From: Chrysemys picta bellii
Lineage: Eukaryota > Chordata > Testudines > Emydidae
DNA length: 64,000 nt
Direction of reading: 5' to 3'
NCBI RefSeq assembly: GCF_011386835.1
Contig: NC_088797.1
Coordinates: forward strand, 41,167,583 to 41,231,582
Shown here piece by piece: positions 26,866 through 61,300 of this stretch (position 1 is the stretch's first letter; the number at the start of each line of letters is the position of its first letter). The notes below the pieces were generated by a model that searched no databases, was not told the origin of the DNA, and saw only the letters and a program-made list of their open reading frames with translations. A program made the translations under genes and the position numbers.

Positions 26866-27129
26866 GAAGACAAATAAAAAACTTCCCATTTTTGTTGAGT
26901 TTCCTCTCCCCTCCCTTCCCTTCTCTCCTCTCTCATACGTTTCTCCTCACCTCCCCCATATTTCCCTCTGTTTCTACCCTATCACTAAGGCTTTGTCAAC
27001 ACTGGAAAGGGCTTGCTGGTATAGGTATAGTGGCAAACCTTCCTAATGTAGACAGAGTTTATACAAGCCAAAGAGTGCATTTTACTGATATCGCTTTCTC
27101 AAACAAAATAAGCTATCTCCACAAAAACA

Positions 27130-27349
27130 ATGAGAGTCCAGTGGCACCTTAAAGACTAACAGATTTATTTGGGCATAAGCTTTTGTGGATAAAAACCCAC
27201 TTCTTCAGATGCATGAAAGTGAAAATTACAGATACGTGCATATATATTGGCACATGAAGAGAAGGGAGTTACCTTACAAGTGGAGAACCAACGTTGAAGG
27301 CCAATTCAGTTTTTTGTGGATACAGACTAAAACGGCTACCCCTTTATAG
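27130..27349 (-). mobile_element. Penelope-like insertion 1 (older subfamily), inverted body with direct 3' terminus
   Basis: An 11-bp duplication CCACAAAAACA flanks it (27119-27129 and 27350-27360). From 27130 to about 27309 the 3' UTR lies in reverse: GTGGCACCTTAAAGACTAAC, then CATAAGCTTTTGTGGATAAA and GTGGAGAACCAACG. It then switches to the forward terminal piece TTTTTTGTGGATACAGACTA followed by AAACGGCTACCCC. I assign it to Penelope-like elements from memory of turtle genomic copies. It is the earliest-diverged of the four copies in the window. Confidence 0.72.
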
Positions 27350-27690
27350 CCACAAAAACATTTTATTATATCTACATAACTGCATCAATATTAGGGCTTT
27401 TGCTAGTAGAGAAATGTTGTTAAACAATCACATCCCTGACCAACACTTGATCTACTAGCAAAAGTTTCTAGCACAGACCTGGCCTAATTCTCTGATGAGT
27501 GAAACAATTGTGACATGAGAAATAACACAGCTAGCTCCTGCTCCTCCTCTTCTTCCCTCCACTCTGCCCTACCAACAGTACATTGCTGTGTGTCTGGATT
27601 GTAATATCAAAAACAAGTACATTAGGTGACACCATTAGACAACCATGGCTATTATAAATAATCATACACATACAGATTATTTGCACTCAC

Positions 27691-27778
27691 CTTTCACCAA
27701 AGTGTGTTTGTCTGTGGGAGATGAGCGAGCAAGTACTCGTAGTTTTGGCCAGATCTTGTCAATACGTTCTTGCTCAAT
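27691..27778 (-). CDS. ATP2B2: PMCA Ca2+-ATPase (ATP2B2-like) short exon, P-domain
   Basis: An 88-nt exon. It begins in phase 0 after TTTTTCAG and ends one base into a Gly codon before a GTGAGT donor. The 29 residues run from [20 protein letters not shown] to PTDKHTLVK, a signature of plasma-membrane Ca2+ pumps following the RRIRNEKGE of the previous exon. The conserved [12 protein letters not shown] stretch belongs to the P-domain. It is too short to be convincing alone, but it fits in frame between the flanking exons and has consensus splice sites. The next intron is about 15.2 kb. Confidence 0.95.
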
Positions 27779-57400: not shown

Positions 57401-57546
57401 TGGGCACTGTGCTAGCCACTCCTTTTTCTGGCAGCTGGGAAAGAATTTATCCCTCACTGCCAGATTGGCCAAAGTGGGGGGAGTGGGATTCGCCTTCCCC
57501 ACATCAAGTTCAGAGGGCCCTTAGATAAGGTGAGTATGGAATAGGA

Positions 57547-58366
57547 AGAACAGGAGGACTTGTGGCACCTTAGAGACTAACAAATTTATTAGAGCATAAG
57601 CTTTCGTGGACTACAGCCCACTTCTTCGGATGCATATAGAATGGAACATATATTGAGGAGATATATATACACACATACAGAGAGCATAAATAGGTGGGAG
57701 TTGTCTTACCACCTCTGAGAGGCCAATTAATTAAGAGAAAAAAAACTTTTGAAGTGATAATCAAGCTAGCCGAGTACAGACAGACAGTTAGATAACAAGT
57801 GTGAGAGATTCAATGTTTGTAATGGCTCAACCATTCCCAGTCCTTATTTAAACCGGAGTTGATTGTGTCTAGTTTGCATATCAATTCTAGCTCAGCAGTT
57901 TCTCGTTGGAGTCTGTTTTTGAAGTTTTTCACAGAAAAACTTCAAAAACAGACTCCAACGAGAAACTGCTGAGCTAGAATTGATATGCAAACTAGACACA
58001 ATCAACTCCGGTTTAAATAAGGACTGGGAATGGTTGAGCCATTACAAACATTGAATCTCTCACACTTGTTATCTAACTGTCTGTCTGTACTCGGCTAGCT
58101 TGATTATCACTTCAAAAGTTTTTTTTCTCTTAATTAATTGGCCTCTCAGAGGTGGTAAGACAACTCCCACCTATTTATGCTCTCTGTATGTGTGTATATA
58201 TATCTCCTCAATATATGTTCCATTCTATATGCATCCGAAGAAGTGGGCTGTAGTCCACGAAAGCTTATGCTCTAATAAATTTGTTAGTCTCTAAGGTGCC
58301 ACAAGTCCTCCTGTTCTTCTTTTTGCGGATACAGACTAACACGGCTGCTACTCTGAAACCTTTCAT
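57547..58366 (+). mobile_element. Penelope-like insertion 4, near-perfect 386-bp palindrome
   Basis: A 12-bp duplication TATGGAATAGGA (57535-57546 and 58367-58378) flanks 820 bp. The paired sequence spans 57545-57930 and 57934-58319 around a 3-nt spacer, and appears identical by eye in inverted orientation. The direct arm begins inside the end of an ORF (NRLQRETAELELICKLDTIN ... WEWLSHYKH, stop near 58056), matching my memory of the C-terminus after the GIY-YIG endonuclease of turtle Penelope-like elements. A 3' UTR follows, ending TTTTTGCGGATACAGACTAA ... CTCTGAAACCTTTCAT. The inverted arm lacks the last 49 nt. Confidence 0.88.
57934..58056 (+). pseudogene. Penelope-like ORF, C-terminal 40 codons
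   Basis: Frame from 57935: KNFKNRLQRETAELELICKL then DTINSGLNKDWEWLSHYKH and a stop. In full-length turtle Penelope-like elements, as I recall, this follows a GIY-YIG endonuclease. The same 40 codons are present inverted in the left arm (57808-57930). No reverse transcriptase or GIY-YIG core is included, so this is a dead fragment. Confidence 0.65.
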
Positions 58367-61300
58367 TATGGAATAGGAGTTAGACTATGATGTCGTAACT
58401 CATTATGTAAGAGTGGGGTGGATGTCCAGTGCCGGTACTCTGTAAGGAAGGGATACAGAGATCGGATAAATGGTTTGGTAAAGGATTTAAAGGAGCTGTT
58501 TGTTAAAGCAGCGGAAACACGGGGGGTTCCTATGACTGGCATGGCAGGAAGCCAACACTCCCCCTCCTTTATAGCCCACCTTAATCCTCATTCAAGGGGG
58601 TGGGGATGGTAAGGTCCCAGCAGCAGGTTGGCTGGGGACCAGAATAGAAAGGGGGAGGGGGCTGACAGAAGCACCCCAGGTAGATACTGAAATGATTATG
58701 GATATGCCTGCACTGTACACTTATCTGCTGGGTATGCCCCCACATTTAATAATAAAGCTGCGGCCTCATTAAACCACATCCAGTGTCTCCTGTCCTTTAT
58801 CCAGTATAGCCAGACAATGAACCATGCAGAAAGATTTTAAAATCTGCTAGCAAGTGTCCACTTTCCCCTTTAGCAGCTGCTGTCTCCACACTCTCTGCAT
58901 ACTATATTAAAACAAGCATATGGTGGTGAGAGTTGGCAGTAGCACTTCCTTTCCTATACTGTTTCACCACAAAATCTGTATGCCAAACTAGCCTCCTTGC
59001 AGATTGCTCTCTACAGTTCATACCAGAAGCTGCTGGATGTTATAACTTCAAACTGTGCCCTCTGTAAGTTTATTTCCTGCTTAAATCTGCAGTTTATAAA
59101 ACTCAGAGCAAAATTAAAAGGGACAAAGGGACTATCTAATGAATAATTAACTGGAAATGCTCTGTTGATCTTTTTCATTGTATGAAAGATACTAGAAAGT
59201 CTTTTAATTATGATTTGTGCATAGAAATCCATTCTTTTAGATCTCAACCTCTAGATCACATTACAAGCTATTTTGGCTATTAACAATGTTTGCTTATATA
59301 TTGCTTGGTAAAATCTTTGCACTGGAATGGAGATGGGCGAGGTGACCTAATACGTCTGTCTGTCTAATTCTTGTAACCTTTATTATTCCATATGTACTAT
59401 AATACCTTCAGTTAGTTCATTTAAGCCTTTATGTAATTTTGTTAATATTAATACTCCAGGTTTAGATATTCACTTGTAAAATGTACTGATCAATTAAAAC
59501 CAGTATTTTTCACCTTAACCCCCCCAAAACATGTTTCTAGGTCAAAGTACAGCTGCATAAAAGTACAGCTGCATAAAAAGGCTTTTTTCTAAAGCTAGCA
59601 TTGACACAGGACAGGGTTAGGATGCATGTTGTACATACCTATTCTAAGAGCTTCACAGAAATGAACTGCTATGTATTCTGCAAAGCATATCATCTTTAAT
59701 CACATCAGACCACTTTAAATTTCATAATTAGTGCTATCAATAGTGCCTTATCAACACATAAGACAATATTATTTTTTTAACTTATAATTTTAACAATTTT
59801 TATATAGCACTTATTGAAGGACCAGCGCTATATATCATTACAAAGGATACTACCTCCCACTGAGATCATTAACCAGCTTCTGGCACCTGAGAGTATCATA
59901 TATTAATCTGTTGATGGAAATACAATCCCTGTATGTACTGAATAATGAGAATATCCTCAGTGGCAATTTCGTATACATACGGAAGTAGGCAGAGGCTAAA
60001 TAACTGATTAGGTAGATATGCTCCTAAGGAAGGGTTAATGCTAAAAATGAAACTCTCTAAAGGTGACTTAAAAAATGCTTCCATCTTTTAGTTAGACTGG
60101 GGAGTTACAAAAGCTTTCATATTCACTATAGTACTTATTAAACTTCGGTTTTCATGGCTTGCCTGTTCCAATCCTATACTGGTAGCAGTATGGCAGGGTG
60201 ACATAAGCCTTTCCAGTTTAAATTTCTATGAGTTCATGCATATTACAAAGTCTTCAGTTGGATCACAAAATGCTTTTATGTACAGCTGGTTGAGCTACTC
60301 AGTTAGAATAATACTGGTTAGGAATGTATCCCCTTTTTTATTATTGTATCCAATAAACTAATTTGGCCAGTATGTTCTATCTATAATGAATGCTTCTGTT
60401 AGCTCTACTTGTGATAGAAAAAAAACAGGAAGACAAACAGAAGAGAAATATTTAAAAAATAAATCCTTTCATTTTAATTTATAGAATAATTTAAATTCTA
60501 CATTTTGTGTACTGAGCCAAGGGAAAATGGCCAGGATATGCAGGTTTATTTTTTATTTTTTTATTTAAATCTAAATGCACAGAATTTAAAGATAACTTGG
60601 GAGAAACAAGTCTGTTCAGATGATGTGTTATTTTTTCATTCCCAATATTGTACAGAAGGAGAGCAATTTCAGACAACTGAATGAATCTATAGCATTGCCA
60701 AATCTGGAGATGTTCCATCTTGCTGCATAATGTGGTTTAGTGTTTTAAAATTCTCTGCAATGGAAGTCATCTAAAAAAAGATAAAATAGTCACACACTAG
60801 ATTTAAAATCAAAGCCATCAACTTGTCTTAGAGAAATACTCTGGTGTGCACGTTTATTTCAGTAAAGTAAAGATGACAAAAGAATTAGCATTTCCTTTCT
60901 AAAACCTTATTTACAAGACATTTCAGCCAGGGTGGAAAATAGGGTGAAAGTAGACAAATTCTACTCATGCATAACTCTCTAAAGGCCAAAATTTTATAGC
61001 TTAATTTTATTATTAACCTAATAAGGAGCCATAGATTATCAGATATGTAATTACATAATGCACATTTTTCGTTTTGTGGAAGTTGCAATAAAGAGAAGGC
61101 AAATTAAAATGCTTTTGGCATTGTACAGTTTAATAAAGGATAATAAACTGCCTCTGGGTTTTGTACTCACAGCAAAAAGGTAACCAGTCAAAATACAGGT
61201 AATACTCACTCTTAATAAAGCTGTTGCTTTATACCTCAGAAATAATAGTTTACAATTCTCACAAGATTATTGACTAACCATCTAAACTGAAATAATCTTA

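Follow-up and report, generated by a model that had tools for sequence, protein, structure and literature searches.

One start site of each kind at the two ends of two-armed Penelope-like insertions in the turtle Chrysemys picta bellii

In LINE-1 twin priming, the element RNA is primed by the two target ends, which leaves an inverted and a direct piece inside one target duplication, a minority product whose second start is variable. Penelope-like retrotransposons show comparable layouts, and a curation guide names inverted pseudo-long terminal repeats (pLTRs) and 3' extensions among their peculiarities (PMC8969392). In the rotifer Adineta vaga, elements such as Pen2a consist of an inverted pLTR at the 5' side and a direct pLTR, with an optional 31-bp tail on one inverted pLTR and a single target duplication, and the Discussion of that paper reads such palindromes as self-priming on an antisense template (PMC3846280). 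For Poseidon of Anolis carolinensis (PAc), the protein has been described to cut and extend both strands, with two internal starts that bound the tail, and the insertion mechanism of Penelope elements is considered there to be still largely open (PMC11167929). Here, we describe a Penelope-like element with four copies in a stretch of 64,000 nucleotides from the turtle Chrysemys picta bellii (C7:41167583-41231582, referred to as the window), together with its copies across the host assembly (2.37 Gb, 9,732 contigs). All 88 distinct two-armed insertions in which both outer ends could be resolved had one end at each of two fixed sites, p1 and p2, and none had two p1 or two p2 ends. Very probably, these insertions arise when the two target ends each prime reverse transcription at one of two start sites in the RNA of this endonuclease-bearing element, with each site used once per insertion.

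The comparison with these systems shows both likenesses and differences. PAc has the same combination of a reverse transcriptase (RT) and GIY-YIG frame, tandem pLTRs and two internal starts bounding the tail, and both strands are cut and extended there. However, the PAc start sites are reported in bulk, and the parts of the paper considered here do not state how they combine within one insertion; an AC-rich stem-loop serves as the main start there, and the starts are described as not homologous to the cut DNA, whereas in the turtle p2 is a U tract and short pairing above control was found at both starts (PMC11167929). The rotifer insertions share with ours the inverted and direct pLTRs, the optional tail of 31 bp on one inverted pLTR, the one short duplication and the palindromic inner junctions, and an earlier note on this DNA had remarked that complex inverted Penelope copies are known elsewhere. 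The rotifer insertions differ in the proposed self-priming, while here the inner ends are mostly unequal and the outer ends lie at two fixed sites, and in their duplications of 8-10 bp against mostly 12-14 bp in the turtle (PMC3846280). The layout and the two start sites are already in print, and the rule of one start of each kind was not found in the sections considered of either paper (PMC3846280, PMC11167929). No statement of this rule or of obligate twin priming was found in the open-licence literature, nor did a text search find a paper containing a 24-nt piece of the tail.

One p1 end and one p2 end per two-armed insertion

Positions in the element unit (u) are numbered from the start of the direct piece of the fourth window copy (copy 4). 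The tail extends to about u436 and an ATG within the open frame comes next; p1 lies at u425-441, immediately before this ATG, and p2 is mostly a tract of five U (U5) about 40 nt upstream of p1. An exact 36-nt piece of the tail was present at 9,742 places in the genome (none for the reversed control), and the first 80 of 100 listed places, taken in order along C1 and each with 900 nt upstream, constitute the tail-selected sample. In 44 of the 80, an inverted outer arm was accompanied by a duplication of 8-15 bp, and in 6 more the arm was present and the duplication was not found (one of these is a duplicated locus). Direct-only copies were fewer, with 7 carrying a duplication of 8-14 bp and 6 apparently direct-only without one, while 2 were internal and 15 long, nested or unresolved. 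This survey had been proposed in the earlier note, and neither a majority of simple direct insertions nor a scatter of arm starts came out of it (50 two-armed versus 13 direct-looking copies).

The outer breakpoint that had been described as fixed in the window is also fixed in the genomic sample, as an element-encoded position for the second priming would explain. In 43 of the 44 copies with arm and duplication, the arm starts 1 to 11 nt outside the motif ACAGGAG (ACGGGAG in one), so that random twin priming, already doubted on the window copies, is not the explanation; the one exception is L057, near u373. The lead was identical to the element in 41 of the 44 and altered in L071 and L109. 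Most arms begin in a tract read AAAAA on the arm, which corresponds to U5 in the RNA, and in two subfamilies that differ by three bases between motif and tract the arm starts tend to track the tract.

A sample selected by the tail could reveal insertions with two p1 ends but not with two p2 ends, whereas 33 insertions gathered without regard to the tail (tail-blind) could reveal either. These derive from a 24-nt piece common to both arms, found at 48,080 genome places. Among the first 100 listed arm places, neighbors within 1.2 kb formed 29 head-to-head pairs, one same-strand pair and no tail-to-tail pair, while random scatter would give about 2.5 pairs of any kind. The 100 places represent 71 loci: 43 were fetched for the tail-blind test, 18 were already in the tail sample, and 10 single hits were left out. 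Both outer ends were resolved in 27 of the 29 head-to-head pairs, which make 25 distinct insertions once two duplicates are removed, but not in the other 2; L135 and L038 were dropped as duplicates of L127 and L036, and L034 and L037 fall short of an outer end. Eight further two-armed insertions had the exact 24-nt word in one arm only. All 33 distinct insertions of this list, 10 of them also tail-selected and 23 additional, combined p1 with p2; with independent site choice at each end, the chance of 33 mixed out of 33 is at most 0.5 to the power 33. In a strict alignment holding most of the 33, the p2 starts fell at u380-395 except for L146 (u376). The duplication was not found in five (L035, L039, L050, L134 and L152).

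Longer copies and copies on other chromosomes follow the same pattern. Out of 20 further loci, 9 were two-armed with both outer ends present (about 1.4-4.9 kb, on eight contigs), and all 9 had p1 plus p2 and duplications of 12-14 bp; 7 others do not have both outer ends inside the fetched piece. Three more palindromes of about 810-830 nt resembling copy 4 (L003-L005) also had p1 plus p2, at different target sites. Of the 88 insertions, 49 thus come from the tail-selected sample (44 with a duplication, 5 distinct ones without), the tail-blind list adds 23, and the remainder are the 9 long ones, the 4 of the window and L003-L005; the duplication was not found in 7 of the 88 (the five above plus L095 and L102).

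The element and its copies in the window

Tandem units of 2,956 bp, an arrangement that gives pLTRs, are found in L013 and L029, copies on other contigs. The first of these contains a 918-codon open frame (L013:3933-6686) with matches to RVT_1 (4.7e-11) and GIY-YIG (8.6e-06), both over the curated cut-off. Judged from its sequence, the element is a canonical endonuclease-bearing Penelope-like retrotransposon, with a predicted RT and C-terminal GIY-YIG frame, tandem pLTRs and a 3' tail. The target duplications are short (8-15 bp, at 12-14 bp in 56 of 70 insertions), and a tail is present on one end only in all 88 two-armed insertions, in keeping with the 30-40 bp tail on one of the two inverted ends of endonuclease-bearing Penelope-like elements. 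In tandem copies the unit sequence continues past p1 (L034 and L049 have internal tails), which would fit reverse transcription beginning inside the RNA. Penelope-like elements of this kind have a hammerhead ribozyme motif in the pLTR. No hammerhead family was among the Rfam matches up to an E value of 10 on L013:3580-4180 and copy 4, a search that very short or degenerate motifs can escape, and the matches on copy 4 were hairpin look-alikes under gathering scores. There was no RNase H family among the Pfam matches of the 918-codon frame, NCBIfam gave just weak matches to other reverse transcriptases, and no solved structure matching the 918-amino-acid frame by sequence was found. Viral contigs (two patterns) and phages (one search) gave no match to the element, and the sole match in a further contig search (L001) was a 19-mer in a bacterial stretch with no more similarity by eye.

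Within the window, four copies were read and aligned mutually (27119-27360, 49293-49482, 52300-52422 and 57535-58378), and no fifth was found with a profile of the 3' region scanned with filters off. The alignment confirmed what the earlier note had reported, namely that each copy begins on the left with an inverted piece and continues with a direct piece, both within a single exact duplication of 11, 14, 15 and 12 bp in copies 1 to 4, respectively. Copies 2 to 4 end at one common terminus, and copy 1, which is old, terminates nearby. The features are as follows.

27119..27129, no strand: left target duplication of copy 1, CCACAAAAACA, exact 11-bp match to the right copy at 27350-27360
27130..27309, minus strand: inverted arm of copy 1 (old), beginning near p2, 86% match to the copy 4 arm over 74 nt, start mutated
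27310..27349, plus strand: direct piece of copy 1, tail only
49293..49306, no strand: left target duplication of copy 2, TTAGGAAATGTAAA, exact 14-bp match to the right copy at 49469-49482
49307..49353, minus strand: inverted arm of copy 2 from p2, with an internal skip of about 40 nt
49354..49468, plus strand: direct piece of copy 2, up to p1
52300..52314, no strand: left target duplication of copy 3, GTCATAAAGGGAGTG, exact 15-bp match to the right copy at 52408-52422; its GTCAT is also element-like
52315..52347, minus strand: inverted arm of copy 3, beginning just inside p2, 33-nt match
52348..52407, plus strand: direct piece of copy 3, up to p1
57535..57546, no strand: left target duplication of copy 4, TATGGAATAGGA, exact 12-bp match to the right copy at 58367-58378
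57547..57930, minus strand: inverted arm of copy 4 from p2, identical to its direct piece (382 nt without mismatch, an inverted repeat)
57931..58366, plus strand: direct piece of copy 4, u1-u436 in unit numbering
58317..58325, plus strand: p2 start region in the direct piece of copy 4, around the TTTTT tract; 43 of 44 tail-selected arm starts lie within 11 nt of the neighboring motif
58355..58366, plus strand: p1 start region of copy 4, at the terminus; in 19 tail-blind copies the ends fall at u425-435

The direct piece of copy 1 is just the 40-nt tail, with mutated ends. For copy 2, the plain arm of 32 nt given previously has to be amended, as about 32 nt are followed by a skip of about 40 nt and about 16 nt more (CCCACTTCTTCGGATG) before the direct piece. 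The distance of 44-49 nt between arm start and terminus, also given previously, holds for copy 3 provided that the GTCAT common to element and target is counted with the duplication, but this arm begins at CAGGAG, a few nucleotides inside the tract where copies 2 and 4 begin.

Positions 58282-58290 (TGTTAGTCT) and 58333-58341 (AGACTAACA) could form a perfect 9-bp stem, with the p2 tract in the loop of the predicted RNA fold. A terminal hairpin had been put forward as a possible requirement for insertion, and this candidate was rejected: despite the 9-bp stem enclosing p2, the 3' region folds no better than shuffled sequences (z of -1.07 and -0.22). Elsewhere in the window, 33902-34548 contains an 82-nt inverted repeat (89%) with arms 483 nt apart, unrelated to the Penelope copies and possibly a short DNA transposon, and 35257-37737 another, diverged one of about 550 nt (82%) whose arms lie about 1.4 kb apart.

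Pairing at the starts, inner junctions and competing routes

At both starts, the flanking target continues the element for longer than expected. At p2, the end of the left duplication matches the onward sequence of the element for 1.34 nt on average, compared with 0.58 when duplications were permuted among insertions (0 of 5,000 permutations; 41 insertions, with L057, L071 and L109 left out), and at p1 the mean was 2.47 nt versus 0.64 in 19 tail-blind copies (again 0 of 5,000). This excess over the control suggests a brief pairing between the 3' end of the target and the RNA at each of the two starts.

Inner junctions were compared in 70 insertions (44 tail-selected, 19 tail-blind, the 4 of the window and L003-L005), in which inserts were 79-828 nt long and some inner ends are uncertain because the subfamilies diverge upstream of about u297. 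The inverted arm reached more than 5 nt further upstream in 39 (at least 50 nt in 9), the two inner ends lay within 5 nt of each other in 17, and the direct piece reached further in 14. Sequence overlap at the junction averaged 2.2 nt, compared with 0.9 for random joins (0 of 5,000; 54 clean junctions of the 70), and four junctions coincided with a palindrome of 16 nt (CTAACAAATTTGTTAG or a closely similar sequence). There were 64 distinct junctions, with (342,342) seen four times and three others twice each. The two arms of one insertion agreed in a diagnostic base in 52 of 54 cases and in the type of a 3-nt indel in 50 of 56, pointing to copying from the same type of RNA.

The palindromic copies could suggest a snap-back, in which the cDNA end folds back and copies itself into the inverted arm, stops near the A tract and is joined to the target. 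Copy 4 and L003-L005 are near-perfect head-to-head palindromes, and the 17 insertions with nearly equal inner ends, as well as the four joined exactly at the 16-nt palindrome, would be expected from such a process. However, an arm that extends beyond the direct piece, as in the 39 insertions above, cannot have had the direct cDNA as its template, and self-priming offers no reason for the pairing with the target at p2. As a general route it is refuted by these longer arms, and we regard it as very unlikely, although part of the equal-armed copies may have been formed in this way. Twin priming with free placement, that is, one usual start at the 3' end combined with a second start at any place where the other end of the target happens to pair, is even less likely. 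It would give an identical final geometry and microhomology at the inner junction, and the inverted plus direct piece in one duplication and the junction microhomology of LINE-1 twin priming are both found here, but a second start within 11 nt of one motif in 43 of 44 copies is fixed rather than variable, and two-armed copies are the usual product in our sample (50 versus 13 among 80). The least likely of all is a fixed cassette, a whole two-armed unit transcribed and reinserted with inherited ends. The recurrence of some inner junctions would agree with it, but 64 distinct junctions in 70 insertions and lengths ranging from 79-828 nt to 1.4-4.9 kb refute it as a general route.

Other observations weigh against priming from both target ends at two RNA sites. 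Besides the 7 of 80 single-armed tail copies with a duplication, there were at least 7 single-armed tail-blind loci with duplications of about 8-12 bp, starting from p2 alone (L116, L124 and L142; L138 and L148 by eye) or from p1 alone (L128 and L149), and 3 of the 20 further loci (L017, L023 and L028) had one arm from p1 and duplications of 10-12 bp. Not all p2 starts coincide with the tract (L057 starts near u373, L146 at u376 and L130 at u380). L133 has two p2-like outer ends, with identities of 93% and 78% and no shared duplication longer than 7 bp; it probably represents two insertions of different age and was set aside, but taken as one insertion it would be the sole exception to the rule. 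For PAc, the parts of the paper considered report that top and bottom strands did not differ in start site and that the starts were not homologous to the cut DNA (PMC11167929). Another of the 20 further loci, L024, also has one arm only, from p1, with no trusted duplication. Two arms are usual but not obligatory, and of the obligatory second priming at a set position suggested in the earlier note, the set position stands and the obligation does not.

A few loci show further peculiarities. L002-L005, of which copy 4 is one, are near-identical head-to-head palindromes of about 810-830 nt in different targets, with inner junctions a few nucleotides apart (u1-u12); both cDNAs may have halted at a shared point, for example the RNA 5' end or a stop. 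In L026:5446-7311 a young copy apparently lies within an older inverted copy, and the unit positions of the older copy on the two sides of the gap overlap by 12 (u326-337), apparently a target duplication inside the element itself. The inverted arm in L012:5012-5492 is broken by a 100-nt piece of the same element (u337-436), either a nested short copy or a template jump. In L090:280-515 a 12-bp match to the right flank is found about 220 nt upstream of the left end of the element, with unaligned sequence between, possibly captured or nested DNA.

A model of insertion and its meaning

Priming from both target ends could proceed as follows. The nuclease would cut the two strands of the target at positions usually 12-14 bp from each other, and the resulting pair of 3' overhangs would later turn into the duplication. 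One overhang would pair briefly with the RNA at p1, around CUGAAACCU(G/U)UCAU just before the ATG, and be extended, while the other would pair at p2, mostly at the U5 tract about 40 nt upstream, and be extended as well. The two antisense cDNAs growing inwards would then be joined via short microhomology or self-complementary sequence, one becoming the inverted arm without a tail and the other the direct piece with the tail. The order of these steps and the use of the overhangs as primers are what we infer from the structure of the finished insertions. The simplest explanation for one start of each kind in each two-armed insertion is a single RNA that carries each start once and serves both ends, perhaps within one two-headed complex; the alternative would be two RNAs of the same type. 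Where the arms overlap, one copying enzyme must displace the product of the other.

We lean with some reserve towards a stricter division of labor, with one RNA and its two start sites per insertion complex, each site serving for the extension of one broken DNA end and neither being reused. The p2-primed cDNA is the longer one in 39 insertions versus 14 of the 70 (sign test, 0.0008), an excess that under-detection of short inverted arms can inflate, and in 11 versus 4 of the 19 tail-blind copies (0.12). This is in line with strict division because a p1-primed cDNA would have to run into the p2-primed one. Eleven direct pieces (those of copies 1 and 3 included) stop within 25 nt upstream of p2, compared with two inverted arms, which is only suggestive, as short inverted arms are under-detected.

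The mix of direct, inverted and tail-bearing Penelope copies has been puzzling. One start of each kind per two-armed insertion, with short pairing to the target at both, assigns the published pair of start sites to the opposite ends of the insert. This rule lends itself to testing in the existing in vitro assay, in other genomes that contain Penelope elements and, within this genome, in the 9,742 exact tail copies. If true, the strict division of labor would account for the tail and the inverted pLTR as parts of a single product, and it would suggest a two-headed complex, for example a dimer, acting on a single RNA.

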